From: Dongshaea marina
GTDB lineage: Bacteria > Pseudomonadota > Gammaproteobacteria > Enterobacterales > Aeromonadaceae
DNA length: 64,000 bases
Assembly: GCF_003072645.1 (NCBI RefSeq)
Contig: NZ_CP028897.1
Span: forward strand, 2,927,658-2,991,657
Direction: 5' to 3'
Below are positions 10,615-38,226 of the stretch, one piece after another. Within the stretch, counting starts at the first letter, position 1. Each line of letters begins with the position of its first letter. The notes below the pieces were generated by a model. It had not been told where the DNA came from and did no database searches. It saw only the letters and a program-made list of their open reading frames with translations. The position numbers and the translations under genes are program-made.

Positions 10615-10640
10615 CTGTAGGTGGTGGAGCTGGGGGAGTC
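10615..10640. other. Left attachment site (ssrA 3' end duplicate)
   Basis: CTGTAGGTGGTGGAGCTGGG... repeats the last bases of ssrA and 7 bp beyond (37859-37885). The two copies match over their length except for five rather than six G in the tract. The repeat includes the CCA end of tmRNA, as expected for integration into ssrA. Confidence 0.85.
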
Positions 10641-14249: not shown

Positions 14250-14874
14250 CCGTGCCTGTAATTCAGGGAGCAAGACTATGAATACAACTTTATATCCAAA
14301 AGGACCAAGCCTAAACAAAGCGATTATTGACAGAATTGTGTACGTCAAGCAAGGGCAGGTTGTGACTGATAGCGCAATCATTGCAGACCACCTGAAAGTG
14401 AAGCATTGGCGAGTTTCTCGTGCTGTCGAAAGTGTCATTGATGACTACCCCCACAAAACTGTCGGATTAAGGGTCACAATTTGTGACCCTAAACTTCTAG
14501 GTTTTTCCGCCTCATGTTGGACAGTTACAAAGGAGTACCGTGGTCAGAAATACGATGTTTATGTGATGGATAAAGCGATGGTGTCCTTGGTGTCGATGCG
14601 CTTTACCACCAAGCAGGCCCGGCAATGGCAGCTTAGGTATTGCGTTTTTTGGTCCATCGCGATCACCCAATAAGATCGATAGCGATCACTGAATAATATC
14701 GATCGCGATCGCTCAATAATATCGATGGCGATCACTTTTGAGTTTTATATTATTGGGTGATCGGCATGAATATTATGCAGTCCCGACCGAAATGTTATTC
14801 ATTTCAACTCCCGTTTCGCAGGTGTTTTTTTAACCGGCTATGCTCTCTGTTTGACCTCGAGCGGAGAGCCAGCC

Positions 14875-16422
14875 ATGCCAACGGTGCATATCACCATGCG
14901 AAAACTCAAAGAGATCCTCAGACTCAAGTACCAAGGCGGCCTGAGTCACCGCCAGATCGCAAGCAGCCTGTCTGTGTCTCCGTCGACTGTGTCCAATTAC
15001 TGCAAAAGGGCCCAACAGATGGGGCTATGCCAATGGCCTCTGCCTGCTGAGTGGGATGAAGAGCGGCTGCGCCGTGAGTTCCTTGAGACCCGGATCACGG
15101 TTCGTCAGACACCTCCTCTGCCGGATTGGGCCGTGGCCCATCAGGAGCTCAGACGCAAAGGGATGACGCTACAACTCCTGTGGGAGGAGTATGCTGAGCG
15201 ACATCCCAAGAACCACTACAGCTATAACCATTACTGCATGCGTTATCGTGAGTGGCGTAAATGCCAGTCTCCCTCAATGCGTCAGAGCCATAAAGCCGGT
15301 GAAAAACTGTTTGTTGATTACTGCGGTCCAACCGTGCCCATCGTGGATCCGAGGACTGGGGAGGAGCGTCGGGCTCAGATCTTTGTCGCTGTGATGGGTG
15401 CATCCAGCTACACCTACGCCGATGCAACCTTGAGTCAGGGGCTGGAAGACTGGGTGATGAGCCATAAACGGGCCTTCGAATTTCTGGGGGGAGTACCAGA
15501 GATGATCGTTCCGGATAATCTCAAAAGCGGAGTCAGTAGAGCGTGTCGCTACGAGCCAGATCTCAATCCTACCTATCAGCAGCTGGCTGCACACTATGGT
15601 GTTGCAGTGCTTCCTGCCCGTCCTTACAAGCCCAAAGATAAAGCCAAGGCTGAGGTGGGCGTGCAGATCGTTGAGCGCTGGATCCTGGCAAAACTGCGCC
15701 ATGAGACCTTCTTCAGTCTGGCTCAGCTAAACCAGCGGATCGGGGCTCTGCTCACCGAGTTGAACAATCGCCCGTTCAAGAAGCTGCCGGGAAGCCGTAA
15801 ATCACAGTTTGAATTGCTAGACAAACCGGTGCTCAAATCGCTGCCTCAAAACCCCTATCAGTTCACCCGGGTGAAGGCGGTTCGGGTTCATATCGACTAT
15901 CACATCGAGCTCGACAAGCACTACTACTCGGTTCCCTATACCCTGCTCAAACGCAAGCTTGAAGCGCATATCTGCGACAACCTGGTACGGATCTATCATG
16001 GTGGTCGCTGTGTCGCGACACATCCACGCAGCTATCAGCAGGGAGGGCAAACCACCCACCCCGATCATATGCCGGTCGCACACCAAAAGCAGATGCAATG
16101 GACCCCGGGACGCTTTCTGAACTGGGCTCAGGAGATAGGCCCCTCCACGCTTGCGGTGATCAAACAGCTGCTCTACCGAAAGTCCCACCCGGAGCTTGGA
16201 TATCGGGCCAGCCTTGGGATCCTCAACCTGGAAAAGCGATATGGACGCCCCCGCTTAGAAGCGGCCTGCCAGCGAGCAGACCGAACGGGCGTTTACTATC
16301 AGAAAGGGATCCGCTCCATCCTGGAAAAGGGGCTGGATGGCCAGCCACTGCCCGAAACTCAGCCGGATCGTCTGGCGGAGCTCACTCACCTCAATATCCG
16401 TGGCTCAGGCTACTATCACTAA
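14875..16422 (+). CDS. istA: IS21 transposase IstA
   Basis: A 515-residue DDE transposase. An N-terminal helix-turn-helix lies in LSHRQIASSLSVSPSTVSNY; the integrase core follows, with LFVDYCGPTVPI (first Asp), [11 protein letters not shown] (second Asp) and [10 protein letters not shown] (Glu). I chose the Met at 14875, which has GGAGAG upstream, rather than 14851. istB begins 9 bp after the stop. This copy is intact, unlike the second copy. Confidence 0.93.
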   Translation: MPTVHITMRKLKEILRLKYQGGLSHRQIASSLSVSPSTVSNYCKRAQQMGLCQWPLPAEWDEERLRREFLETRITVRQTPPLPDWAVAHQELRRKGMTLQLLWEEYAERHPKNHYSYNHYCMRYREWRKCQSPSMRQSHKAGEKLFVDYCGPTVPIVDPRTGEERRAQIFVAVMGASSYTYADATLSQGLEDWVMSHKRAFEFLGGVPEMIVPDNLKSGVSRACRYEPDLNPTYQQLAAHYGVAVLPARPYKPKDKAKAEVGVQIVERWILAKLRHETFFSLAQLNQRIGALLTELNNRPFKKLPGSRKSQFELLDKPVLKSLPQNPYQFTRVKAVRVHIDYHIELDKHYYSVPYTLLKRKLEAHICDNLVRIYHGGRCVATHPRSYQQGGQTTHPDHMPVAHQKQMQWTPGRFLNWAQEIGPSTLAVIKQLLYRKSHPELGYRASLGILNLEKRYGRPRLEAACQRADRTGVYYQKGIRSILEKGLDGQPLPETQPDRLAELTHLNIRGSGYYH

Positions 16423-16431
16423 GGATCAAAG

Positions 16432-17187
16432 ATGACAGAACAACTCAAACAGCAACTTCGGGAGCTGAAACTAAGTGGTATCCGGGATGCCCTGGAAAGG
16501 CAACATCAGCAACCCGGGCACTACCAGGAACTCGGGTTCGAAGAGCGACTCAGCCTGCTGCTGGAGCAGGAGCTGACGGATCGGTCTCAGCGGCGGATCG
16601 AGCGCCTTATCAAGCAGGCCCGATTCCGGCTGCAGGCAAATCTGGAGCAACTGGATTATCGAAGTGATCGCGGCTTGCATAGAGCCCAGATCCGCTCACT
16701 GGCAGAGGGATACTGGCTTAGCCTGGGGCAGACTCTGATCCTGACCGGGGCGACCGGGTGCGGGAAAACCTATCTGGCCTGCGCCCTGGGCCATCACTTC
16801 TGTCTGCAGGGACTCGGGGTTCGCTACTTCCGGTTTAAAGAGCTGCTGGAGCAACTGCAGCTGGCTCAGGCTGATGGCAGCTATCGAAAGCTGATGGTTC
16901 AGTTGAGAAACACGCCGCTTCTGATCCTCGATGACTGGGGACTGGAGTCGCTGAATGCGCTTCAGCGTAGCGATCTACTGGAGTTAATCGATGCTCGCCA
17001 TGGTCACGGAGCCACACTGATCGGCAGCCAGCTTCCGCTGGAGCACTGGCACACAATGATCGGTGAATCAACCCATGCGGATGCGATCCTGGATCGTCTG
17101 GTTCATGGAGCGATCCGTGTAGAATTATGCGGAGAATCGATGAGAAAAATCACCGCAGAGTTGACGGATGCCGATCACTCAGGGTAA
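16432..17187 (+). CDS. istB: IS21 helper ATPase IstB
   Basis: A 251-residue AAA+ ATPase related to DnaC that assists IstA in target capture. Walker A is GATGCGKT (about residue 105), Walker B LLILDDWG (about residue 162). An AAGGATC site precedes the ATG. The two copies in the window encode the same protein. Confidence 0.95.
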   Translation: MTEQLKQQLRELKLSGIRDALERQHQQPGHYQELGFEERLSLLLEQELTDRSQRRIERLIKQARFRLQANLEQLDYRSDRGLHRAQIRSLAEGYWLSLGQTLILTGATGCGKTYLACALGHHFCLQGLGVRYFRFKELLEQLQLAQADGSYRKLMVQLRNTPLLILDDWGLESLNALQRSDLLELIDARHGHGATLIGSQLPLEHWHTMIGESTHADAILDRLVHGAIRVELCGESMRKITAELTDADHSG

Positions 17188-17711
17188 AAAATAACCCAGT
17201 CTGTGAGACGGGATGTTGAGGTGATCGACATCATATTATTCGGTGATCGCCATCGCGATAATACGCAGGTATGTTGCGGCACATGAAAAAATGGAGCAGT
17301 TCATTCTACAGTCAAAGCGAAACTCAGTAGATACGGCTTGGCAGCAACAGCGACACCACGAGATAGGCTTCCGCCACCAGTTGACCGACTGTATTAAGGC
17401 TTTCACCGAGTACGCAGATGAACAGGGTAGCCGCTCCGCTTCGCGATATTACAAGGCAATAACGGATCTGTGCCACAAAACTGTTGGTATCGGCTCTGGT
17501 CTGCGAGATGCCCTAACCCCTTTGCAGTTATCCCAGCTTGTCGTTGTTGAGAACGCAGCTATCAGTGCCATCTCATCCTCAATGGCCCGGGAGACCCCAT
17601 ATAAAGAGGTTTACCAAAATGTTAAGGCGGAGCTTGAGTGCCTGGCGATTGCTATGGGGACCTCAACCCCTGTAACAGGATAGGTTTAAAACCTACCCTA
17701 GACCCTCACTC

Positions 17712-17777: not shown

Positions 17778-17807
17778 CTGTGGGTGACATATAAGGATCT
17801 TCTTTTG

Positions 17808-20669
17808 ATGAACAAAAAACCCGCAACAGCTGGAGACAGCAAAAATACAGTTCGTGCGATTGCCTCCCCCCGGCCAGCAAAAGTAACTGTTGTCACAAGC
17901 ACGCAGCCAGCCAGGCTCACAAAGTCATTCCATATCAGCGCATCGGGCGAAATGGTGAAAGAGTCAGGCGGTCAACTGGTCACAGGGAGCTACACAACCC
18001 AAGAGTTCGATAATCTATCAGAGTTTTCAGAACTACTTACTGGCCTTGATACGAACCAGGCTCTCATCTTTGGGGTGAGTAACAAAGGCGAATCAGGGCG
18101 CATGATGAGCGAAAAAGAATGGATCCGGTCAGGGACGCCAGCTGATGTTACCTTGAGGCAGCTGCGCCATTTTGGGTGGAGCCGGGACAAGTCGGTGCTC
18201 ATGCTGGACTATGATCCACAGGCAGAAGCTCCGGCGCTGTCCAGGGATGAGTTGGTATCTACAATTCGGAATGCCATCCCAGAACTTCAATCTGTGGAGA
18301 TGCTTTGGTGGTGTAGTTCCAGCTCTAACATAAGCAACACCCAGACAGAAAAGGCTATAAGCGGTGTTCGCGGACAGCGGTTATATCTTCTCGTTGATAG
18401 CGGGGCTCGCATTGCCGACATAGGCAAACTAATAGACAAGCGCCTATGGGCTACTGGTTACGGGTACTTCGCAGTCAGTAGTAGCGGCTCACTTCTCAAA
18501 CGCTCCCTGGTTGATACGAGCGTATGGCAACCCAACCGCCTTGATTTTGCAGCTGGCGCAGAGTGTAAGCCACCGCTACAGCAAAGCCGGGGTTTGCCTG
18601 TGGTCATTCCTGGTGACAACCCTTTCATTCTCACTGAGTCAGTGCTGGAAAGCATCTCACACGATGACCTATCTAAACTTGATGCGCAGGTTCTTGAGCA
18701 AGAGGAGCAAAAAAGAGCCGAAGCTCGCCCTCAGCAGCTTATTAAGCGCAACATCTGGCTTGAGTCACAGACCACAAAGATAGTTGATGATGCCAAACTG
18801 GATGACAGAGAAGTAACTACCGAAGAGGCAAGGGAGTTAGCAACCAGGGCGCTAGATTCAGGGATACTGACGGGATCCTGGTTGATTCAACTTACTCGCA
18901 GGGATGGCGTTCAAGAGTCTGTTCCTGTTGGCCGCATTATGGATAGGCCAGCCTTGTACCATGGCGCAAAAACCAAAGACCCAACAGAGCCAGAGTATGA
19001 CGGCGGCCGATGGGTAGGGAAATTGTATCTTATGGATGGTAGGCCAACTCTCTACTCTCAGGCTCATGGCGGGAAGAGCTATAAGCTACTGCGCCAGGTT
19101 TCGGAAATTGAACTGGTGTCAGGTAAAACAGTGGACGCAACCCAAAGAACAATCGAGCTAATGAGTGTGATGCCGGATATTTTTGACCATGGGGATAAGC
19201 TGGTTCAAGTATCCGGTGGCGTGATGCGACCATTTACGCAAGGCTCTCTTAGGTTTTGGTTGGGCCAGCGCATACAATACTGGTCAAACAGGAAGTTAAA
19301 GAATGGGGAGCTCACCAAGGTGAACCGTGACGCCCCCAAAGAACTCCCGCTTATGGTGCTTGAGCTTGGGCGTGACCGGGGTTTACAGCAGATAAAGGCC
19401 GTAGTTACCGCCCCTGTACTTACGCACGACGGACGCCTACTAAACCGCCCTGGGCTTGATAGCCTGTCTGGTATTTTTTGCGCATTCAATCCTGACGACA
19501 CAGCACCCGTCCCCTCCAGGCCATCTGAACAGCAAATGCTAGATGCTGTTGATATACTCATGCGCCCGTTTCAGGACTTTGCATTTTGCACTCCGCTTGA
19601 CCGTTCTGTTCTCATGGCCGCGCTACTGTCGGCAGCTATCCGGCTTGCGGTCTCCACCTGCCCTGGCTTCGCATTCGACGCACCCATCCAAGGTTCAGGT
19701 AAAACTCTACTCGCCCGGTGTGTCGGTGCGCTCTGTACCGGATCAGACCCCGCAGCACTCCCACCACCGAAAGGAAATGATGAGGGAGAGGTACGAAAGA
19801 GACTTACAGCACTCCTGTCTGAGGGTTCCCGCTACTGTCTCTGGGATAACGTTCTTGGTGTTCTTGATTCAGCAGCTATTGCAGCAGCATTCACAAGCGC
19901 CAGCTCAAAGGACAGGATCCTGGGGCAAAGCTCTATGGTGGAGTCTGCAAATCACATGCTGTTCGTCATCACAGGAAACAATGTAAGCCTCGGCGGTGAT
20001 ATGCCCAGGCGTGTCTATACATGCCGAATAAACCCAGAAACAGACAGGCCGTATGCCAGGCGATTTAACTTCGATCCGCTACAGCACTGCTTGGCAAACC
20101 GTCAGCAAATGGTAGCGGCAGCTCTGACCATTATTCGTTACAGACAGCAAAGCCAAGAGCCATTAGCCGATGGATCCACAGCATCATTTGAACAGTGGGA
20201 TGACATGGTAAGGCAGCCCATAGCCCTGGTCTCTCGATTGCGCCCCCAAGATTATGGTGACGTTATGGAAGTGATGAACAATGCTCAGCGCTCAGACCCG
20301 GAGCAAGAGGATCTGCTCAACCTTATCAGGGGCGTTCATGCGTGTTTCGGGGTTAACCGGGTGACAGCAGCAGATATAAAAAACGCTATTACTGGCGACA
20401 GGAACATTCGACCAAAGGCACAAATATCCACTAACCAAAGAGATATTGAGTCGCTAAAGGATGCCCTTGAGTCAATATGTGGGCGACCGGCGCAGCAGTT
20501 AACATCAAAGACTATATCCCGCACATTACAGAACCGGAACGAGCGTCTTGTCCAAGGGTGCTGCTTGCGCATGGCCCCGTCTCGAAAAAACGGTGCCTCT
20601 TACTGGGTGGAGATTCGACAGAACTGTAGCGTGCTCGACAGCGGTTTGATTGCCGCCGTTCAAACTTAA
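17808..20669 (+). CDS. Large primase-helicase-like replication protein, 953 aa
   Basis: Probably the island's replication enzyme. Residues about 60-260 resemble an archaeo-eukaryotic primase-like fold: SVLMLDYDPQAEAP (about 130) recalls the acidic DxD metal motif, and VRGQRLYLLVD and RLDFAAG lie where similar proteins have their later motifs. The C-terminal part is an ATPase with Walker A QGSGKT (about 628) and a Walker B-like YCLWDN (about 674). Start at 17808 has AAGGA 10 bp upstream; a Met at 17784 is in frame but lacks a site. It follows leader repeat copy 2. The primase assignment is inference; the ATPase motif is clear. Confidence 0.65.
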   Translation: MNKKPATAGDSKNTVRAIASPRPAKVTVVTSTQPARLTKSFHISASGEMVKESGGQLVTGSYTTQEFDNLSEFSELLTGLDTNQALIFGVSNKGESGRMMSEKEWIRSGTPADVTLRQLRHFGWSRDKSVLMLDYDPQAEAPALSRDELVSTIRNAIPELQSVEMLWWCSSSSNISNTQTEKAISGVRGQRLYLLVDSGARIADIGKLIDKRLWATGYGYFAVSSSGSLLKRSLVDTSVWQPNRLDFAAGAECKPPLQQSRGLPVVIPGDNPFILTESVLESISHDDLSKLDAQVLEQEEQKRAEARPQQLIKRNIWLESQTTKIVDDAKLDDREVTTEEARELATRALDSGILTGSWLIQLTRRDGVQESVPVGRIMDRPALYHGAKTKDPTEPEYDGGRWVGKLYLMDGRPTLYSQAHGGKSYKLLRQVSEIELVSGKTVDATQRTIELMSVMPDIFDHGDKLVQVSGGVMRPFTQGSLRFWLGQRIQYWSNRKLKNGELTKVNRDAPKELPLMVLELGRDRGLQQIKAVVTAPVLTHDGRLLNRPGLDSLSGIFCAFNPDDTAPVPSRPSEQQMLDAVDILMRPFQDFAFCTPLDRSVLMAALLSAAIRLAVSTCPGFAFDAPIQGSGKTLLARCVGALCTGSDPAALPPPKGNDEGEVRKRLTALLSEGSRYCLWDNVLGVLDSAAIAAAFTSASSKDRILGQSSMVESANHMLFVITGNNVSLGGDMPRRVYTCRINPETDRPYARRFNFDPLQHCLANRQQMVAAALTIIRYRQQSQEPLADGSTASFEQWDDMVRQPIALVSRLRPQDYGDVMEVMNNAQRSDPEQEDLLNLIRGVHACFGVNRVTAADIKNAITGDRNIRPKAQISTNQRDIESLKDALESICGRPAQQLTSKTISRTLQNRNERLVQGCCLRMAPSRKNGASYWVEIRQNCSVLDSGLIAAVQT

Positions 20670-20704: not shown

Positions 20705-20749
20705 GGGGGTTTCGGGGGTTTCGGGGGTTTCGGGGGTTTCGGGGGTTTC
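20705..20749 (+). repeat. Five tandem GGGGGTTTC units
   Basis: Five exact 9-bp units directly after the primase-helicase stop. Five G5 tracts spaced by TTTC could form a G-quadruplex on the plus strand. Confidence 0.9.
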
Positions 20750-20938
20750 AGGGTGTTTCAATATCAATACCTTTTCAATTGTTATCCCGGATAACTCCTG
20801 CGCGTCTAGTTATTTTGAATCCCCCGAAGCACCCGAATCCCCCCTAGCACTCCAGTAAGGTTATAAATTGAACAAAAACTGAGTATTTTGCAGACATCAT
20901 ATCAACTAGGTCAGTTTTTAAGGGCATGGGTACAATAA

Positions 20939-20982
20939 CTACCGGGATAACCGTGACAAACTACCGGGATAACCGTGACAAA
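20939..20982 (+). repeat. Tandem 22-bp direct repeat
   Basis: CTACCGGGATAACCGTGACA plus AA occurs at 20939-20960 and again at 20961-20982. The GACCGTGACAAACTA part returns near 21440, and ACTACCG motifs recur at about 22289-22340, on the other side of the rha gene. Confidence 0.85.
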
Positions 20983-21544
20983 CTTAGACTCCAAAATAGG
21001 CTCTCAGCCCAGCTATGGCACGGCTCTCAGCGTTTTGCTATTTTTCCGTACTAGTATTTACTAATAAATACTATAGGAGCCTCCTTTGGGAGGGGCTCCA
21101 ACAACCCCCAGCCAGGCTCCCCCCAGACCGGCACAAGTCGAACCAACGAAAACCAAACGAACACCAGCAAGCTCTCAACAGAATGCGACCAAGAGGAACA
21201 AGCAGGTTGAGAACCACCCGAGAAGCGGCCGCTGTGAGTCCCTGAGATGAATGGGAGCGCGATCCAGGCTCCGACCCTGACAAACCTGTTTTAGGCTAAT
21301 AGTGGAGCCTACAGGAACGCATTTAGGCATTGAGCAGCCAGAAAAGATTGTAAAAGTTACGGGCTCTGGATAACTATACCGCTCCCCTGTAAGCGCAGGT
21401 TAAGCACATTCAAATAGTGCTCATGCGTGTTTCGGGGATGACCGTGACAAACTATAGTGCTCAAGAACACAAGCTGGCTCACATTCCAGAACGGCGCACT
21501 GTTCTTTGGTTGGTTAGCTGCCCAGATTATCCCCCAGGGCAGGA

Positions 21545-22132
21545 TCAGAGCTCAGCCTTAAGGGGATGTCGCCAAATATCGCCTTTGACCCCCTGTATAT
21601 GCTTCCAAATGTTACCGGAAACCTTAGTATTCCTTAGCAAAATGTATCCAAATATAACCATCCAACAGCAGAGGGGGAGGCTGGCTGAGCGCTTGGTTTG
21701 CGCCTGGTTTGCGCTGGTTTGCGCCTGGTCTTTCTTGGTCCGCTTGTAATCAGCCAGCTCCCGGCCACACATAAATGCCAGCTCCTTACTCTTCTTAATC
21801 TGGGATGCCAGGCGTTCCAGCTTTTTAATGCTTGGCTCCTGGTTTCGGGCCTCATACTCCATTGCATTGAACGCATCTATATAGCGTTTCTTCCACATCG
21901 CGGCCTTCTTTCCAGTGAACCCCATACAAAGGAACGCAAATCCATCTTTAGTCATCAGGAAACAAGGTGCGTCCTTGTTTTGCGCGGTTTTGTAGGAGGA
22001 GGGCGAGAAATATCGCTCTCTAAATTCGTCAGAACATTCCATCTGTCGGATGCTTTTCATCACATCTTTATGTGGCTTTCCGAACTTCTCAGCCACCTTG
22101 AGGGATAACACCATCGGCACACCATCCACCAT
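21545..22132 (-). CDS. Rha-family phage regulatory protein
   Basis: A typical Rha-domain protein: VLSLKVAEKFGKPHKDVMKSI near the N-terminus, FLMTKDGFAFLCMGFTGKKA and WKKRYIDAFNAMEYEAR in the middle, then a Gln/Ala/Thr-rich tail encoded by 11-bp DNA repeats. I place the start at 22132, where GAGGAG lies 9 bp upstream; the frame is open to 22210 but those codons also fall within repeats. Rha proteins affect phage lytic growth and need host factors in the described cases. One of three Rha-like genes in the island. Confidence 0.82.
   Translation of the reverse strand: MVDGVPMVLSLKVAEKFGKPHKDVMKSIRQMECSDEFRERYFSPSSYKTAQNKDAPCFLMTKDGFAFLCMGFTGKKAAMWKKRYIDAFNAMEYEARNQEPSIKKLERLASQIKKSKELAFMCGRELADYKRTKKDQAQTSANQAQTKRSASLPLCCWMVIFGYILLRNTKVSGNIWKHIQGVKGDIWRHPLKAEL
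21693..21743. repeat. 11-bp repeat array A (about 5 units)
   Basis: Units TTGGTTTGCGC, CTGGTTTGCGC and shorter variants, lying within the 3' end of the rha gene on the opposite strand. Same unit as array B. Confidence 0.75.
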
Positions 22133-22177
22133 GGTTACCAACTCCTCTATGACACAATTTTCATTAGGCGCTAGGGC

Positions 22178-22254
22178 CTGGTTTGCGCCTGGTCCGCACT
22201 TGGTCCGCACTTGGTCCGCACTTGGTTTGCGCTTGGTTTGCGCTTGGTGCGCAC
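22178..22254. repeat. 11-bp repeat array B (7 units)
   Basis: Exactly seven 11-bp units of consensus YTGGTyyGCrC (CTGGTTTGCGC, CTGGTCCGCAC, TTGGTCCGCAC twice, TTGGTTTGCGC twice, TTGGTGCGCAC). It lies upstream of the rha start at 22132. The period is close to one helical turn. Confidence 0.9.
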
Positions 22255-22612
22255 TCTCTCAGGGTGCGCACTTTGCCTCGAACATTAACTACCGGCCTGG
22301 AACTACCGACCTCCATTTTAAATACCGACCTGGAACTACCGGAATAATCCCGTCCTTGGGTTTAACCGTCCATCGACCCCGGCCAGAGAGCCATGCTCAA
22401 AGAGCGACGGCATTGTACCAGAGAACCCTCTACCGATTTTTCTGAATCCATCGAGCAAGGCGGATCCCCTTCTTGCATCGTCAAAACACCCAGTCTCAGT
22501 GAGTATCCCTTTTGATACCACCCATTATTGATACCAATCAATCGTAATGAGACCATCTATATGATACCATATTGTGATACCAATGTTTTTGAGACCATGA
22601 GAAGGCAGCACC
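22211..22612. other. Intergenic region between divergent rha and resolvase
   Basis: About 400 bp: the end of array B, two to three ACTACCG-containing motifs (22289-22340) and the six TGAKACCA boxes before the resolvase. No gene seen. Confidence 0.5.
22513..22597 (+). repeat. Six TGAKACCA boxes before the resolvase
   Basis: TGATACCA at 22513, 22529, 22562 and 22575; TGAGACCA at 22548 and 22590. Spacing is 13 to 19 bp, all in one orientation, ending 15 bp before the resolvase ATG. Either a res recombination site with accessory sites or an operator array. Confidence 0.8.
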
Positions 22613-27672: not shown

Positions 27673-28995
27673 TCAGGCATACGAATACCCATCGCACGAG
27701 TGAACCTTCGTGCAATACCTATGACTCACATCTCTTTTCCCTGCTGAATCTTGCAGGCTAAACGTACCTGTTTTTCTCACGGAGATTCGGCCTAGGTATT
27801 TGCCTGCATACTTACCAACAGGCACGACAGCTTTAACTACATCCCCAGTCCTGAACCCTTTAACCCGACTGCAACCTTTCGCTTTGGTTCTTGGGAAACC
27901 GTACTTATCAGGCAGCGTCATTTGCCGGGAGCCGTGACCGGTTGCTTTAATTGCCAGCGGCACAGCACTAGAAGGGATAAACACTTGCTGGCCAGTCTCA
28001 CCCACGCAAGCAGCATCCAACCAGTGGTCTTTTTGATAACCTTGCTGCGACCGATTGAACTTGGTTCGTCCGCCACTCCAGAAAGTAGTGGGTAGGCCGG
28101 TCGCCTTCATCACATCGCCAATCCGATACCGGGTAGCATTAACTGCCGCCGCATCTCGCATTGAAGGGCTCCGGCCAGCTATGACCTTTGGTATTCTGGT
28201 TGCCCTTGCCTTGTTGAGTTTGGAGCGTGACTTGCTGACAGCTTTCAACCAATCGGATAGCAGTGTGGCCCCTTTATCCTCATTGCAGGTTCGGCATGAG
28301 GTGACTAGGTTCTTAGCGCTATCGCTGCCGCCTTTAGCTCTGGGTTGCACATGGTCGATGTTCAGAACAGGGTCACCGGAAGCGCCGCCGCAATATCGGC
28401 AAGTGTGCCCGTCCCGCTGCAACAAATACTCACGGAGTTCATAGCCATGCAAGCTGCCTTGCTGATACTCGACACCGGCAATCTTCGGGTTAGCCATGAG
28501 TTGCATATCAAAGCGAACGGTCTCAATGGCAATGTCAGTTACCGGGCAGAGTCGGATTAGCCGATAAGCCCATGTCTCGCAGTTGTGAACCCGGCTCATC
28601 AAGCTGGGAGCAAGCCAGCCTTTGGGCTTCGCTCTATTGTCGAATCGCGCCGGGCGATAGCGAGTCTTTCGGTTGCGCCTCGCTCTGCGCTGGGCTGCTC
28701 TCGATGACAAGCTTTCGCTAATCGCATGGCCGCGATGAGATAGGTTGCCAGCCCAAACAAGGCGGATGCCGTTATCCCCGTGAACAGTCAGAGCCATCCC
28801 CGTTGTCTTGCTCCCGGGGTCTAACTTCAACTCGGTCCTTTGTAGTTCCCCACCTTCCCGCTCTTTCAGGATTATCGTGAACGGGAACCGGCGAAAGACA
28901 GCCGCTTTCTTTTCTTTGAGTAGCTCCCGCGCCCTTGCCGGATGGCAAGGCATAAGCGGTTGCTTCTTACTACTCAAAACTAAAACTCGTTGCAT
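27673..28995 (-). CDS. iscB: RNA-guided nuclease IscB
   Basis: 440 residues, the usual IscB size. Domains in order: PLMP motif at 13-16; RuvC-I with Asp59 (LKLDPGSKTTG); arginine-rich bridge helix at about 99-115; RuvC-II with Glu158 (IAIETVRF); HNH with CRYC (199-202), DH 214-215, Asn229 and CRTC (234-237); RuvC-III HWLD with His324 and Asp327; then a C-terminal TAM-interacting region. All catalytic residues are present, so it looks active. IscB, related to the ancestor of Cas9, cuts DNA using an omega-RNA encoded upstream. GAGGTAA precedes the ATG. Confidence 0.95.
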   Translation of the reverse strand: MQRVLVLSSKKQPLMPCHPARARELLKEKKAAVFRRFPFTIILKEREGGELQRTELKLDPGSKTTGMALTVHGDNGIRLVWAGNLSHRGHAISESLSSRAAQRRARRNRKTRYRPARFDNRAKPKGWLAPSLMSRVHNCETWAYRLIRLCPVTDIAIETVRFDMQLMANPKIAGVEYQQGSLHGYELREYLLQRDGHTCRYCGGASGDPVLNIDHVQPRAKGGSDSAKNLVTSCRTCNEDKGATLLSDWLKAVSKSRSKLNKARATRIPKVIAGRSPSMRDAAAVNATRYRIGDVMKATGLPTTFWSGGRTKFNRSQQGYQKDHWLDAACVGETGQQVFIPSSAVPLAIKATGHGSRQMTLPDKYGFPRTKAKGCSRVKGFRTGDVVKAVVPVGKYAGKYLGRISVRKTGTFSLQDSAGKRDVSHRYCTKVHSCDGYSYA

Positions 28996-29449: not shown

Positions 29450-30205
29450 TTACCCTGAGTGATCGGCATCCGTCAACTCTGCGGTGATTTTTCTCATCGA
29501 TTCTCCGCATAATTCTACACGGATCGCTCCATGAACCAGACGATCCAGGATCGCATCCGCATGGGTTGATTCACCGATCATTGTGTGCCAGTGCTCCAGC
29601 GGAAGCTGGCTGCCGATCAGTGTGGCTCCGTGACCATGGCGAGCATCGATTAACTCCAGTAGATCGCTACGCTGAAGCGCATTCAGCGACTCCAGTCCCC
29701 AGTCATCGAGGATCAGAAGCGGCGTGTTTCTCAACTGAACCATCAGCTTTCGATAGCTGCCATCAGCCTGAGCCAGCTGCAGTTGCTCCAGCAGCTCTTT
29801 AAACCGGAAGTAGCGAACCCCGAGTCCCTGCAGACAGAAGTGATGGCCCAGGGCGCAGGCCAGATAGGTTTTCCCGCACCCGGTCGCCCCGGTCAGGATC
29901 AGAGTCTGCCCCAGGCTAAGCCAGTATCCCTCTGCCAGTGAGCGGATCTGGGCTCTATGCAAGCCGCGATCACTTCGATAATCCAGTTGCTCCAGATTTG
30001 CCTGCAGCCGGAATCGGGCCTGCTTGATAAGGCGCTCGATCCGCCGCTGAGACCGATCCGTCAGCTCCTGCTCCAGCAGCAGGCTGAGTCGCTCTTCGAA
30101 CCCGAGTTCCTGGTAGTGCCCGGGTTGCTGATGTTGCCTTTCCAGGGCATCCCGGATACCACTTAGTTTCAGCTCCCGAAGTTGCTGTTTGAGTTGTTCT
30201 GTCAT
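29450..30205 (-). CDS. istB: IS21 helper ATPase IstB (copy 2)
   Basis: Encodes the same 251-residue protein as the gene at 16432-17187, with Walker A GATGCGKT and Walker B LLILDDWG. Its partner istA in this copy is frameshifted, but a functional IstA could be supplied by copy 1. Confidence 0.95.
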   Translation of the reverse strand: MTEQLKQQLRELKLSGIRDALERQHQQPGHYQELGFEERLSLLLEQELTDRSQRRIERLIKQARFRLQANLEQLDYRSDRGLHRAQIRSLAEGYWLSLGQTLILTGATGCGKTYLACALGHHFCLQGLGVRYFRFKELLEQLQLAQADGSYRKLMVQLRNTPLLILDDWGLESLNALQRSDLLELIDARHGHGATLIGSQLPLEHWHTMIGESTHADAILDRLVHGAIRVELCGESMRKITAELTDADHSG

Positions 30206-30214
30206 CTTTGATCC

Positions 30215-31761
30215 TTAGTGATAGTAGCCTGAGCCACGGATATTGAGGTGAGTGAGCTCCGCCAGACGATCCGGCTGAGTTTCGGGCAGTGGCTGGCCAT
30301 CCAGCCCCTTTTCCAGGATGGAGCGGATCCCTTTCTGATAGTAAACGCCCGTTCGGTCTGCTCGCTGGCAGGCCGCTTCTAAGCGGGGGCGTCCATATCG
30401 CTTTTCCAGGTTGAGGATCCCAAGGCTGGCCCGATATCCAAGCTCCGGGTGGGACTTTCGGTAGAGCAGCTGTTTGATCACCGCAAGCGTGGAGGGGCCT
30501 ATCTCCTGAGCCCAGTTCAGAAAGCGTCCCGGGGTCCATTGCATCTGCTTTTGGTGTGCGACCGGCATATGATCGGGGTGGGTGGTTTGCCCTCCCTGCT
30601 GATAGCTGCGTGGATGTGTCGCGACACAGCGACCACCATGATAGATCCGTACCAGGTTGTCGCAGATATGCGCTTCAAGCTTGCGTTTGAGCAGGGTATA
30701 GGGAACCGAGTAGTAGTGCTTGTCGAGCTCGATGTGATAGTCGATATGAACCCGAACCGCCTTCACCCGGGTGAACTGATAGGGGTTTTGAGGCAGCGAT
30801 TTGAGCACCGGTTTGTCTAGCAATTCAAACTGTGATTTACGGCTTCCCGGCAGCTTCTTGAACGGGCGATTGTTCAACTCGGTGAGCAGAGCCCCGATCC
30901 GCTGGTTTAGCTGAGCCAGACTGAAGAAGGTCTCATGGCGCAGTTTTGCCAGGATCCAGCGCTCAACGATCTGCACGCCCACCTCAGCCTTGGCTTTATC
31001 TTTGGGCTTGTAAGGACGGGCAGGAAGCACTGCAACACCATAGTGTGCAGCCAGCTGCTGATAGGTAGGATTGAGATCTGGCTCGTAGCGACACGCTCTA
31101 CTGACTCCGCTTTTGAGATTATCCGGAACGATCATCTCTGGTACTCCCCCAGAAATTCGAAGGCCCGTTTATGGCTCATCACCCAGTCTTCCAGCCCCTG
31201 ACTCAAGGTTGCATCGGCGTAGGTGTAGCTGGATGCACCCATCACAGCGACAAAGATCTGAGCCCGACGCTCCTCCCCAGTCCTCGGATCCACGATGGGC
31301 ACGGTTGGACCGCAGTAATCAACAAACAGTTTTTCACCGGCTTTATGGCTCTGACGCATTGAGGGAGACTGGCATTTACGCCACTCACGATAACGCATGC
31401 AGTAATGGTTATAGCTGTAGTGGTTCTTGGGATGTCGCTCAGCATACTCCTCCCACAGGAGTTGTAGCGTCATCCCTTTGCGTCTGAGCTCCTGATGGGC
31501 CACGGCCCAATCCGGCAGAGGAGGTGTCTGACGAACCGTGATCCGGGTCTCAAGGAACTCACGGCGCAGCCGCTCTTCATCCCACTCAGCAGGCAGAGGC
31601 CATTGGCATAGCCCCATCTGTTGGGCCCTTTTGCAGTAATTGGACACAGTCGACGGAGACACAGACAGGCTGCTTGCGATCTGGCGGTGACTCAGGCCGC
31701 CTTGGTACTTGAGTCTGAGGATCTCTTTGAGTTTTCGCATGGTGATATGCACCGTTGGCAT
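30215..31761 (-). pseudogene. istA: IS21 transposase IstA (copy 2), frameshifted
   Basis: Identical to copy 1 except that the tract at 31146-31150 has five bases where copy 1 (15485-15490) has six. The frame then ends after FLGEYQR instead of reading FLGGVPEM. The C-terminal 306 codons remain open. A one-base difference between otherwise identical copies fits either a recent mutation or a base-calling error. Confidence 0.9.
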
Positions 31762-32103
31762 GGCTGGCTCTCCGCTCGAGGTCAAACAGAGAGCATAGCC
31801 GGTTAAAAAAACACCTGCGAAACGGGAGTTGAAATGAATAACATTTCGGTCGGGACTGCATAATATTCATGCCGATCACCCAATAATATAAAACTCAAAA
31901 GTGATCGCCATCGATATTATTGAGCGATCGCGATCGATATTATTCAGTGATCGCTATCGATCTTATTGGGTGATCGCGATGGACCAAAAAACGCACCAGG
32001 TAGGCAACTGTCTCCCCTTTGCGCTGGATCTCCACAGGCGCATCCTGAGCGGCCCGGATCGTCTTGTTTGCTTCTCTGGCGAGCTGAGCAACGTTAATCT
32101 TTT

Positions 32104-33497: not shown

Positions 33498-33719
33498 ATG
33501 GTTAGCTTAGTGATGCTCCACTTTGATAAGCGGAAAGTCATTGTCAGGTTCACTTGTACCGGAGAGACAGCGGAGCTCTGCCCTCTCGATCCTCTTCTGG
33601 ATACGCTCCTGGCCCACATGAGCAAGTCAGACCAGGGGATGATTACGAAATACCGCTATGCTGTTGCGGGAGTTTGGGAAAGGTTAATGGAGCACTCTAC
33701 CTGTGATGATATGTTTTAG
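33498..33719 (+). CDS. Hypothetical protein, 73 aa
   Basis: A small protein with a strand-rich N-terminus (VMLHFDKRKVIVRFTC) and a helix near the end (GMITKYRYAVAGVWERLM). The ending faintly resembles the tail motif of the island's Rha-like genes. GAGAGGGA stands before the ATG. It overlaps the converging gene by 23 bp. Family not recognised. Confidence 0.5.
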   Translation: MVSLVMLHFDKRKVIVRFTCTGETAELCPLDPLLDTLLAHMSKSDQGMITKYRYAVAGVWERLMEHSTCDDMF

Positions 33720-34125
33720 TAGAGGATGGCATACGAACGCCGGTAGTAGCATCATTTTGAAGCTGGTTTTGTGGTAGCGAAATAGGAACCGAGAACCTGA
33801 CGCGCGATTCTGTACCACTCGTTGCCGTAGTGCTGGCCTCTACCCCAGCATTCAGCATCTTGAGCACCTTGATCCCTCCACTGCCTTTGGTTCCGCTTTC
33901 GTCATGCGTGGTGACAGCCACATCAAAATCGACACTCTCAACCAGTGAGTATGTATTATCCCCCAGGTAAGTGAGCTTGCTACCACTGTTCTTACCACTG
34001 GAACGCTCCACTGGGCAGTTCAATACGGCATTAGAACCGGACTCCCGCAAAGTGGCCTGAGCTCGCTCGACGCCCTGGGCAACCTGCACAAGAACCTTAT
34101 CCACAAAATCATCTAACTCCATCAA
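33697..34125 (-). CDS. Hypothetical protein, 142 aa
   Basis: Begins MMELDDFVDKVLVQVAQGVERAQ, then a strand-rich part with YSLVESVDFDVAVTT and a C-terminal VRFSVPISLP. The pattern recalls 'trypsin-co-occurring' small proteins, an uncertain match. Soluble. It stands alone on the minus strand. Confidence 0.5.
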   Translation of the reverse strand: MMELDDFVDKVLVQVAQGVERAQATLRESGSNAVLNCPVERSSGKNSGSKLTYLGDNTYSLVESVDFDVAVTTHDESGTKGSGGIKVLKMLNAGVEASTTATSGTESRVRFSVPISLPQNQLQNDATTGVRMPSSTKTYHHR

Positions 34126-34335: not shown

Positions 34336-34725
34336 CTAACCAGGAGCGGCCAATAGCCCCCTCTGCTCGGCTCTATCCTCCCATCGTTTCTGTAGCTCCT
34401 TACCGGCCTCAAAGTCTGTGCCCTGCATGTACGGTAGATAGAAACACTTTCGGCGCGGTACATCGAACACAAGACGCTCCACTTCAAGAGCCTTTTTCTC
34501 ATCGGTCGATTCTTCAAGACGCCCATAGTACCAGACCCCCATGCCACATAGGTAAGGGGGATTAGGGCGAACACTGATCCGAAAGACAGACCGCTTGCGA
34601 GCTTTGACATTGTCCCGAGTACGCCCATGCACCGGTCGGTTGTAATAACTATTCGGTCCGCACTGCTCATTCCGGCAAAAGAAATGACAGTCAGCACAGC
34701 GGTTTTTCTTAAAGATGTTTAGCAA
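34336..34725 (-). CDS. Cysteine-containing hypothetical protein, 129 aa
   Basis: TTG start at 34725 with GGAG 7 bp upstream. CADCHFFCRNEQC near the N-terminus could bind a metal; later LCGMGVWYYGRL and CFYLPY. An overlapping minus-strand frame (34263-34697) is less likely because it lacks a ribosome site and domain pattern. Unknown family. Confidence 0.45.
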   Translation of the reverse strand: MLNIFKKNRCADCHFFCRNEQCGPNSYYNRPVHGRTRDNVKARKRSVFRISVRPNPPYLCGMGVWYYGRLEESTDEKKALEVERLVFDVPRRKCFYLPYMQGTDFEAGKELQKRWEDRAEQRGLLAAPG

Positions 34726-35005: not shown

Positions 35006-35563
35006 TCATTGCAGGGCTCCAGGTATACCAAAGCGAGCCATCCCTACTTGAGTTAGCTCTGTTTTGGTTATTTTTTGTGTGGATAACAACTCAGATGGAT
35101 TGGTATTGGATCTTAATAATGGATCATTACTAATAACGGATCGGGGGTCACCGTTGACCTGTCCACTCCCCTGTTTTTTGTCCGATTTGACCTGTCCACT
35201 CTCTGATTTGACCTGTCCACTCCCCTGTTTTTTGTCCGATTTGACCTGTCCACTCTTGGGTGGATGGGTCACTGTTGAGCTATCCACTATTTTTGAGGTG
35301 AACTGATACTGATTTGACTGGTTTTTACGCCCATCACTGTAGTTACCAGCCCTTTTTCGTCGGGTTAGCCAGCCATCATCAACGAGTCGCTTGATACACC
35401 GCTTCACAGTGCTCTCGGACTGCGTGGTCATCTTCGCTATCGTTTCGATGGACGGCCAACAAGCGCCATCATCTCGGCAAAAATCAGCAAGGCAAAGGGC
35501 CACAATCCTTTCTGGCATAGGGATACTCGATTCCCACACAGCTCTTGTGATTGCTATCCCCAC
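35006..35563 (-). CDS. Replication protein O-like winged-helix protein
   Basis: 185 residues, GTG start overlapping the alpA stop by 1 bp. The N-terminal domain (MPERIVALCLADFC, CWPSIETIAKMTTQSESTVKR, LVDDGWLTRR) is the winged helix found in lambda O-like and plasmid Rep proteins. The middle is a repeat (SGQVKSDKKQGS, SGQVKSES) whose DNA carries four GACCTGTCCACTC units, and the 3' region holds a DnaA box. The layout matches a lambda-like origin inside the initiator gene. The tail is unrelated. Function inferred. Confidence 0.72.
   Translation of the reverse strand: MGIAITRAVWESSIPMPERIVALCLADFCRDDGACWPSIETIAKMTTQSESTVKRCIKRLVDDGWLTRRKRAGNYSDGRKNQSNQYQFTSKIVDSSTVTHPPKSGQVKSDKKQGSGQVKSESGQVKSDKKQGSGQVNGDPRSVISNDPLLRSNTNPSELLSTQKITKTELTQVGMARFGIPGALQ
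35078..35255. other. Putative replication origin with four iterons
   Basis: GACCTGTCCACTC begins at 35156, 35189, 35210 and 35243; the units are 33, 21 and 33 bp apart. An AT-rich stretch (35060-35140) adjoins, with a perfect DnaA box TGTGGATAA at 35078-35086. All lie within the O-like gene, as iterons do in lambda O. Confidence 0.6.
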
Positions 35564-35808
35564 TACGCCACTAACTCCTGGCGCCTCTCTACCAGCTCTC
35601 TAACCAAATTCCGCAACTCGTCTGGATTAGATCCATTAACCATTGCTGCCATAACAGCATCAAGCTCAGTAGACACCCACGCTACTGAACGCCCACCGAG
35701 CGACACTGGGGGTGGCACAAGGCCATCATTTATCCTGCCATAGAGGACCGTGTTACTCAGGCCAAGCATTTTTAGAGTTTCGGGGCGACGGACAAATCTA
35801 TAGCTCAT
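35563..35808 (-). CDS. AlpA-family transcriptional regulator
   Basis: 81 residues with the AlpA/MerR-like DNA-binding domain: FVRRPETLKMLGLSNTVLYGRI, PPPVSLGGRSVAWVSTELDA. AlpA proteins activate integrase or excision genes in P4-like and PICI elements. It is transcribed with the O-like gene; the unknown gene and integrase lie upstream. Confidence 0.88.
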   Translation of the reverse strand: MSYRFVRRPETLKMLGLSNTVLYGRINDGLVPPPVSLGGRSVAWVSTELDAVMAAMVNGSNPDELRNLVRELVERRQELVA

Positions 35809-35919: not shown

Positions 35920-36498
35920 TTAGTCGATGAAAACTTGAGCAATATATTTGCGAATAGAGTCTACACTTCGAGGAACCTCACCGCTTTCATATATCCGTTG
36001 AGCTATCTCACGTTGGGATAATGTTGGATCCTCGCTAAGAAGCTGAGCAGCTATCTCTTGAGCTTTCTGGACTAAAGGCTTCGCCTGTGCACTACGCTTC
36101 AACCCGCTAACAGCACCAGCCTTTGAGGCCCACTTTTGGCGGTTTTCCGGTGTGGTTTTTTCTTTTTTTAAGCCGTGTATTTCCACAGCCAATTGTGCCC
36201 AGCTCTCTTTAAGCTGATTTGTGCTAGCCTCATAACTCTTGGCTAGCCCAAGCATTTCTTCAAGTTCAATTGCACGCCGTTCCGAAATTTTTGATAACAG
36301 ACTCTGTGTTGATCCAAAAGCAACCAACCTTGTGATTACGTCACAAAGGAGCTCTAGCTCATAAGTCACTTCAATCTCTTGACCCTTAAAGGTTTCCTTA
36401 AGAACCTTTTTTGCAGATTTGCTTGCCTCTACATGATCCGCACCATCCACCATTAACGTACAGAGGCTCTTACTCAGCTCAGATGCATCCATAGACAT
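35920..36498 (-). CDS. Hypothetical protein next to the integrase, 192 aa
   Basis: Start taken at 36498 (MSMDASELSK), overlapping the integrase stop by about 20 bp; an upstream Met at 36531 is possible. Long helices (coiled-coil-like, SKISERRAIELEEMLGLAKSYEAS) and a C-terminal segment LSQREIAQRIYESGEVPRSVDSIRK that looks like a helix-turn-helix. Perhaps a DNA-binding partner of the integrase. Family not recognised. Confidence 0.6.
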   Translation of the reverse strand: MSMDASELSKSLCTLMVDGADHVEASKSAKKVLKETFKGQEIEVTYELELLCDVITRLVAFGSTQSLLSKISERRAIELEEMLGLAKSYEASTNQLKESWAQLAVEIHGLKKEKTTPENRQKWASKAGAVSGLKRSAQAKPLVQKAQEIAAQLLSEDPTLSQREIAQRIYESGEVPRSVDSIRKYIAQVFID

Positions 36499-37702
36499 GC
36501 GCCTGTCCTCCCGACTGTTGGATGTGGTCACTCCACCATGCCATCATTGCCCGGCGTCGCTTCAGGTAATCAGCTCGATTATAAGCTCGCCTGACTTCGT
36601 TTTTGTCCATGTGACTCAGTGCTGCTTCGATAAGGTCTGGGTCGAATAGACCTGATTCATTGAGAGCGGTGCTTGCTAAGGACCTCAAACCATGCGCTAC
36701 CAGTCTATTTTTGTAACCACATTTCCTAAGCATCTTGTTCACCGTTGCAGATGATGCGCGCTTGTTTAGGTCAGAGTCCGACACAAAGATCCACTCTGTG
36801 TGCCCACTGATAGGGCGTACTGTATCCAGTATTTTTAAACACTGCGGTGTCAGAGGGATTGTGTGTGTCTTGCCCATCTTCATTTTGCTAGCCGGGATAA
36901 CCCAGACATTGCGTTCAAGGTCTAGTTCATCCCATCTGGCAGTGGATGCCTCCCCCGGACGAGACATGGTGTGCAGCTGCCACTCGAACATGGCCTTAGT
37001 AATAATCCGTGACTTGGATTCAGAGACTCGCTTCAATAGCTCACCCAATTCATCGGGCCTAAGTGTTGGCAGATGCTCTTTCTTCGGTGATTTGAATACC
37101 GAACGGATCCCCATCAAAGGGTTGGCTTGAATAAGGCCAGCATTAACTGCATACGTCATCACCTCATTAGCTCGCTGGCAAAGGCGTTTCACGCTCTCCA
37201 ACTTCCGTTGCTTTGCTAATGGCTGTAGAGCTTCGATAGCTAAGGGAGCTGTGATTTTATGAATGGGAACATCACCAATCATTGGGAATAGATGATTTTC
37301 AAGTGAGCTCCACACATCAAAAGCATAGTCTTCAGTGAGGCTCTCTCGTTTCACCTCAAACCATAGCGAAGCGATATACTGAAAGGTATTTAGATGGGCT
37401 CCCTCCGCCTCCCTTCGTTGTCTATCTCGGTGCTCTTTCGGATCAACGTCTTGAGCCAGAAGCACCCTATACTCTCGCCGGAACTCTCTAGCTTCAGACA
37501 ATGATGTTTCTGGAAAAGAGCCTAACCCTATCTGTGTGCGCTTTTTTATGAAGGGGCGCTGATAATTGAACAGCCATTTTTTGCTACCGTTTGGGTGAAC
37601 ACGCAGGCGGAGACCTTCGCCATCAACCAGGACATACTCTTTGTCCTTTGGCTTAGCGGCCTTAATCTCTGTTGTTGTGAGCGGTTTTGTTGTCCTGCCC
37701 AT
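36479..37702 (-). CDS. Tyrosine integrase (P4-type)
   Basis: 407 residues with the DUF4102 arm-binding N-terminus (LTTTEIKAAKPKDKEYVLVD, LRVHPNGSKKWLFNYQ), a SAM-like core-binding domain and a catalytic domain showing SRPGEA (Arg), AHGLRS (His and Arg) and RRAYNRADY (nucleophile Tyr). P4-type integrases commonly target tRNA and tmRNA genes. The Met at 37702 has GGAGAAAG upstream; a Met at 37741 lacks a site. It lies just inside the right att repeat. Confidence 0.93.
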   Translation of the reverse strand: MGRTTKPLTTTEIKAAKPKDKEYVLVDGEGLRLRVHPNGSKKWLFNYQRPFIKKRTQIGLGSFPETSLSEAREFRREYRVLLAQDVDPKEHRDRQRREAEGAHLNTFQYIASLWFEVKRESLTEDYAFDVWSSLENHLFPMIGDVPIHKITAPLAIEALQPLAKQRKLESVKRLCQRANEVMTYAVNAGLIQANPLMGIRSVFKSPKKEHLPTLRPDELGELLKRVSESKSRIITKAMFEWQLHTMSRPGEASTARWDELDLERNVWVIPASKMKMGKTHTIPLTPQCLKILDTVRPISGHTEWIFVSDSDLNKRASSATVNKMLRKCGYKNRLVAHGLRSLASTALNESGLFDPDLIEAALSHMDKNEVRRAYNRADYLKRRRAMMAWWSDHIQQSGGQAHVYGCI

Positions 37703-37796
37703 AACTTTCTCCAGCAAAGGTACACAGAACCCGTGTACCAATTCATGTACCCAAAATTGTAGGATGTCAGCACATCTCTACGGACGTTCTGGTAAT

Positions 37797-37858: not shown

Positions 37859-37885
37859 CTGTAGGTGGTGGAGCTGGGGGGAGTC
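37859..37885. other. Right attachment site within the ssrA 3' end
   Basis: CTGTAGGTGGTGGAGCTGGG... spans the last 20 bases of ssrA and 7 bp beyond, matching the left repeat at 10615-10640 but for one G. Confidence 0.85.
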
Positions 37886-38226
37886 GAACCCCCGTCCGAA
37901 AAACCTACGCCTTCGGTACTACATGCTTAGCCCAATCTTGACATTCGCCGGCAAGCTGCTGATGGGCAAGCTACTGACCGACTAGCCTAATTCGATTTAA
38001 CGCTTCAGACCCTAGGCAAGGTATCCACGCGATCCTGTGAGGGATGACCCTCAAAGCCCCTAAGTCACAGGCAAGTTAGGGAAGAGGGGCCTTTGCAGGT
38101 TATTAAGCTGCTAGAGCGTAGTTGTCTTCGTTTGCAACTATTAGTTTGCGGCTTTTTTACGAGGCCAACCGCACCTCGGCATGCACCTTGGGTTTCGTGA
38201 ATTCCGTCGAGTCCTGAATCAGCCCC
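37866..38226 (-). ncRNA. ssrA: tmRNA (ssrA)
   Basis: 361 nt. The 5' GGGGCTGATTCAGGA and the 3' TTCGACTCCCCCCAGCTCCACCA-type end form the alanyl-tRNA-like domain. The tag frame (38103-38135) reads ANEDNYALAA then stop, resuming at GCA. It rescues stalled ribosomes with SmpB, whose gene lies 76 bp upstream. The island uses its 3' end and leaves the gene intact. Confidence 0.97.

Follow-up and report, generated by a model that had tools for sequence, protein, structure and literature searches.

Replication origins that lie inside the initiator gene are well established for lambdoid phages (PMC7466680). In lambda, the iterons follow the part of the O gene that encodes the DNA-binding domain, are read in several frames and are succeeded by an AT-rich stretch (PMC7466680); the annotated iterons stand 20/24/23 nt apart, occupy all three frames, and have a GC content of 0.32 just after them. 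A related case is given by the Gram-negative PICIs, which carry an integrase, AlpA and a replication module, have no recognised virion genes, and also contain iterons together with AT-rich DNA (PMC6092414). Here we analysed 64,000 nt of the Dongshaea marina chromosome (NZ_CP028897.1, positions 2,927,658 to 2,991,657), hereafter called the window. The results suggested that the segment at 35.06-35.29 kb is probably an iteron origin, or the recent descendant of one, lying inside its own HTH_36 O-like initiator gene on a 27-kb island in ssrA.

The O-like initiator gene is a 558-bp ORF on the minus strand (35006-35563), which starts with GTG and encodes a protein of 185 aa. Its start codon overlaps the stop codon of the alpA gene (TAGTG). 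The protein matched HTH_36 in a domain search (E=6.5e-10), and it was also matched by many PHROG families whose annotation is replication initiation, O-like or primosomal protein, the best at 4e-23. In an AlphaFold2 model built from an alignment of 36 sequences, residues 1-97 formed a confident winged-helix domain, with pLDDT mostly at 86-98 and reduced around residues 71-80 and 91-97, and residues 98-185 had no predicted structure, giving a domain plan of a winged-helix N-domain followed by about 88 aa of linker and tail. The fold matches of the N-domain model were generic winged helices, such as MarR, and no credible relative of solved structure was found when sought by sequence. The Phage_rep_O N-domain (PF04492), which matches lambda O itself at 5.7e-36, had no match in the 185-aa protein at E<=0.1; the two proteins meet only through shared O-like PHROGs.

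The original prediction had placed four copies of a 13-mer, GACCTGTCCACTC, within this gene. All four were found at the predicted positions (35156-35168, 35189-35201, 35210-35222 and 35243-35255), each of them exact, with spacings of 33, 21 and 33 nt, and no further exact GACCTGTCCACTC is present in the 5.1-Mb genome. The count of four had overlooked a fifth, diverged copy (GGGTCACTGTTGAGCTATCCACTA, 35266-35289), which extends the spacing series to 33/21/33/34 nt and is read in a frame different from that of copies 1-4. When copy 1 is extended to 23 bp (GGGTCACCGTTGACCTGTCCACT, 35145-35167), it becomes the partner of 35266-35288, and the shared word GGGTCACYGTTGASCTRTCCACT, a pattern derived from these two copies themselves, which agree at 20/23 positions, was obtained in 0 of 100 shuffles. 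The two copies lie 121 nt apart and are translated in different frames, as SGQVNGDP and VDSSTVTH. Because the same 23-bp word recurs 121 nt away in another frame, the repeated unit is the DNA rather than the peptide, and the peptide repeat is a consequence of the DNA repeat. Since the 49 nt that start at 35154 are found again, unchanged, at 35208, a tandem duplication of 54 bp in the recent past accounts in part for the identity of the four GACCTGTCCACTC copies; all four SGQV copies use identical codons, which has a chance of 3e-7, though the recent duplication explains part of this as well.

Directly after the iterons in the coding direction, between the repeats and the stop codon, lies an AT-rich stretch (35060-35139; GC 0.30-0.33 in 60-nt windows), a candidate unwinding element, and its GC content of 0.30 at 35060-35119 was the lowest of the region profiled. 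A perfect DnaA box, TTATCCACA, is located inside it on the minus strand (35078-35086), where chance would supply about 0.0014 such boxes per 200 bp, or 0.0034 per 480 bp. Both features had been predicted and proved to be real, as did the placement of the iterons and their AT-rich flank, which follow each other as in lambda and lie within the gene for a winged-helix O-like initiator. A DnaA box beside iterons and AT-rich DNA is also the plan of an iteron plasmid-type origin, although the box is not conserved in the relatives. DnaA boxes lie outside the family's origin plan: the window gene was the only one among 82 O-like genes with a perfect box, and DnaA boxes were rejected as a family feature, with 5 seen against 3.2 expected in the 82 genes. 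A second perfect copy of TTATCCACA was observed at 34097-34105, 1 kb from the first and in the opposite orientation.

The repeats were then compared across the family. O-like genes, 179 in number, were gathered from phage, plasmid, viral-contig and genome collections and reduced to 82 non-redundant genes, the window gene included; copies of an 11-mer, with one mismatch allowed, were counted in the linker after the winged-helix domain, and 410 windows of equal size from other parts of these loci served as controls. At least three repeat copies were present in 80% of the 82 genes and in 1.5% of the control windows, and at least four in 54% and 0%, respectively. As the original prediction pointed out, relatives that conserve the protein without the repeats would speak against an origin. 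This comparison favoured the origin: most relatives keep the repeats in the same place, with iteron sequences that differ from gene to gene and often in several frames. Two subtypes were distinguished, the SfII type, mostly with 15-nt repeats in one frame, and a wider-spaced one, with repeats 17, 22, 24 or 33 nt apart. Among the 35 relatives without 12/15/30-nt spacing, which made up the wider-spaced set, copies occurred in more than one reading frame in 26, and likewise in 10 of the 13 clusters of different iteron sequences. The spacing of the wider-spaced repeats followed the helical turn, with a periodicity of 10.5-11 nt (resultant 0.37, nominal p ~6e-7, uncorrected for relatedness), and showed no 3-nt codon periodicity (resultant 0.12, p 0.2), and in 86% of these genes a fall in GC came immediately behind the last repeat. 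Because the linker repeats of the family, the copies in several frames, the helical spacing and lambda's own iterons all agree, the lambda-like arrangement of the repeats in the window gene is well supported at the sequence level.

No close homologue of the 185-aa protein was found in 61 related genomes, only weak ones were found in 369 genomes of the class, and scanning viral and genome collections with single-protein patterns returned no close relative; the O-like relatives were recovered with an alignment-based search. Across 394 genomes of the order, the GACCTGTCCACTC-type iteron pair turned up at no second locus, and its two matches in 2.9 million viral contigs both lay outside O-like genes. 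These two contigs were rejected as relatives, one being GC-rich repetitive DNA and the other carrying the pair outside any O-like gene. In the latter (L193, 3778-3812), two copies of GACCTGTCCAC with a spacing of 24 nt follow directly on a primase-like gene, and these possibly represent an unrelated origin with a similar word.

The closest sequence relatives are the HTH_36 O-like initiators of enterobacterial phages (SfII type; phrog_391, 1032 and 11896), which share about 33-38% identity with the window protein over much of its first 160 aa and carry repeats in the same linker. They differ in being about 280-350 aa long, in possessing a C-terminal module, and in having repeats mostly 15 nt apart in one frame. 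The HTH_36 initiators with 17/22/33-nt repeats, for example from Amphritea (L155 and L188, with a DnaT domain), Pseudomonas, Sphingomonas and Xenorhabdus, resemble the window gene in spacing near 22 and 33 nt, in multi-frame copies and in the GC dip after the last repeat, whereas their iterons are different, their proteins are longer and their DnaA boxes are no commoner than chance. Within this group, the window gene has the HTH_36 domain and the O-like profile match and lacks the C-terminal module. With in-gene iteron origins it shares repeats inside the initiator gene, 3' of the part encoding the DNA-binding domain, and an AT-rich stretch directly after them. From the lambda O family in the strict sense it departs in the N-domain, which is HTH_36 instead of Phage_rep_O, in the absence of the C-terminal domain that recruits the helicase loader P, and in the lack of an adjacent P gene. 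No P-like gene was found beside the ORF, and the ORFs next in the initiator's transcription direction (34336-34725 and 33697-34125) matched nothing in Pfam, and in PHROG nothing beyond E=0.09. The lambda-likeness originally proposed thus stands for the arrangement and not for the protein or its neighbours; the iteron is also different, and the window gene, unlike that of lambda, lies behind alpA on an island whose scanned genes included no recognised virion gene.

This island spans about 10615-37880, approximately 27 kb, in ssrA, and is bounded by a 22-bp attachment repeat, CTGTAGGTGGTGGAGCTGGGGG, at the 3' end of ssrA (37859-37880; tmRNA 37866-38226) and by its partner at 10615-10636. An AlpA-type excision or regulatory protein is encoded directly upstream of the O-like ORF and overlaps it (35563-35808, minus strand; Phage_AlpA E=6e-12), and the tyrosine integrase lies at 36479-37741 on the same strand. 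The cargo further includes an exonuclease, RusA, a resolvase, a RES/Xre pair, Rha-like genes and a 961-aa primase-helicase-like protein (17784-20669, plus strand), which is a possible partner or rival replication module for the O-like initiator; no virion genes were recognised among the genes scanned. No relatives of the island's 203-aa, 129-aa and 961-aa proteins were found in viral contigs, nor any of the 203-aa protein in the class. Compared with the PICIs, the island, known here from its gene content, measures 27 kb, contains two IS copies, has its primase-helicase far from alpA, and carries an O-like origin rather than a pri-rep one.

Several other elements were observed on the island. 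Two inverted IS21-like copies (istA/istB) lie at 14757-17187 and 29450-31879, with istA a single 523-aa ORF in the former and two ORFs in the latter; 23-bp repeats flank them (14659-14736 and 31900-31980), and a Rha-like gene is apparently interrupted by the copy at 14757-17187, its two parts lying at 14278-14673 and 17243-17683. A domain search found a 440-aa RRXRR/HNH protein at 27673-28995, of a type linked with IscB-like nucleases. The stretch at 20705-22355, which follows the primase-helicase gene and surrounds another Rha-like gene, is dense in repeats, including six copies of the 9-bp GGGGGTTTC, two copies of the 22-bp AACTACCGGGATAACCGTGACA with diverged ones, and arrays of the 11-bp TGGTCCGCACT/TGGTTTGCGCT. 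This stretch is a candidate for a second, competing origin. In the Rha-like gene within it (21545-22210), arrays of 11-bp repeats occupy both ends (22185-22252 and 21689-21729), so that here too repeats enter a coding region.

The locus most likely represents an origin within its O-like gene, carried on a mobile island and working now or until recently in the manner of ori-lambda. Excision by the integrase and AlpA would come first, followed by transcription of the alpA-initiator operon; the winged-helix domain would then bind the five repeats, and the protein-iteron complex would melt the adjoining AT-rich stretch. Because the protein is without the C-terminal module of its relatives, the helicase would have to be brought in either by host DnaA bound at the perfect box or by the island's primase-helicase. 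The sequence itself establishes the sites with their order, the unique repeats, the evidence from reading frames, the family-wide rule and the missing module; that the protein binds and melts the DNA, how the helicase arrives and that the locus is active today are steps that we infer. Against this reading speak the missing module, the lack of close homologues in the genomes searched, the absence of the DnaA box from relatives and the second repeat-rich candidate origin on the island.

The missing module is also what gives weight to the strongest alternative. The 185-aa protein stops after the linker, and the C-terminal domain is absent from both the sequence and the AlphaFold2 model, while nearly all relatives are at least 220 aa long. 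The C-terminal modules of relatives include a DnaT domain (L155), Phg_2220_C (L025) and a part held in common with lambda O through phrog_391. No remnant of such a module was detected in the 270 nt 3' of the stop codon, where all frames hold stops, and a frameshifted C-terminus downstream of the ORF was sought and not found in any frame. Because the module of the relatives is missing and undetectable downstream in any frame, the gene may be a relic, that is, a once functional O-like initiator and origin from a phage which lost its C-terminal half by deletion or frameshift and whose repeats are fossils with a recent tandem duplication. Two O-like genes, from Mixta and Pseudomonas (L182, 5944-6682; L187, 5950-6655), are naturally frameshifted within or next to the repeats, so that their C-terminal part is read in another frame; natural breakage at the repeat region therefore occurs in this type of gene, and the two IS21-like copies within the island also fit such decay. 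However, the N-domain is intact and scores well, the ORF remains open through all the repeats and begins in coupling with alpA, and neither the AT-rich stretch nor the DnaA box is missing, so that we regard a relic as a serious but rather unlikely explanation. Somewhat more doubtful still is a minimal O initiator without a helicase module, which would either form, with the help of DnaA, a plasmid-like iteron origin contained in a single 558-bp gene or act as a dominant-negative block on phage replication.

A more specific form of interference would be a decoy, in which the short protein and the iterons compete with the initiator or origin of a related phage and block its replication (superinfection exclusion) without replicating the island. 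Plasmids with lambda origin DNA are known to block lambda replication (PMC3349717, PMC4488673), and a protein that can bind DNA but has no module for recruiting the helicase might be expected to behave as a dominant negative. Yet the searches described above gave no phage O-like gene with the window iteron and no other iteron-pair locus in the genomes of the order that were searched, and we consider a decoy improbable. That the repeats are instead operators through which the winged-helix protein controls its own operon appears very unlikely: such proteins commonly bind repeats near their own genes, and the MarR-like fold matches agree with this, but the sites lie at the gene's far end rather than at its promoter, next to an AT-rich stretch, the relatives are phage replication genes, and the same arrangement in lambda is a known origin. 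Least credible is selection on the 18-aa linker repeat (KSGQVKSDKKQGSGQV), or neutral tandem duplication, with the DNA repeat as a by-product, since the common frame of copies 1-4, the exact 49-nt duplication and a synonymous-codon null that, when the window gene is taken by itself, yields no more than 4 copies (mean 2.6) are set against a fifth copy in another frame, relatives that read the same DNA repeat in several frames and a linker predicted to be unstructured, which already largely contradict it.

What is new in the preferred reading, an in-gene origin of the O-like initiator, is its alpA-linked setting on an ssrA island, the initiator without a C-terminal module and the family-wide multi-frame evidence; a limited search of the open-access literature found no paper describing any of these. 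The missing module raises the question of whether an O-like DNA-binding domain alone can start replication when given DnaA or another helicase. With this locus, lambda's device of placing the origin in the initiator gene would be seen on an integrative island and in an initiator that does not belong to lambda's own O family. Moreover, the same DNA word in several frames, together with helical spacing, provides a test for origins that needs sequence alone, and it could find origins in unstudied phages and islands.
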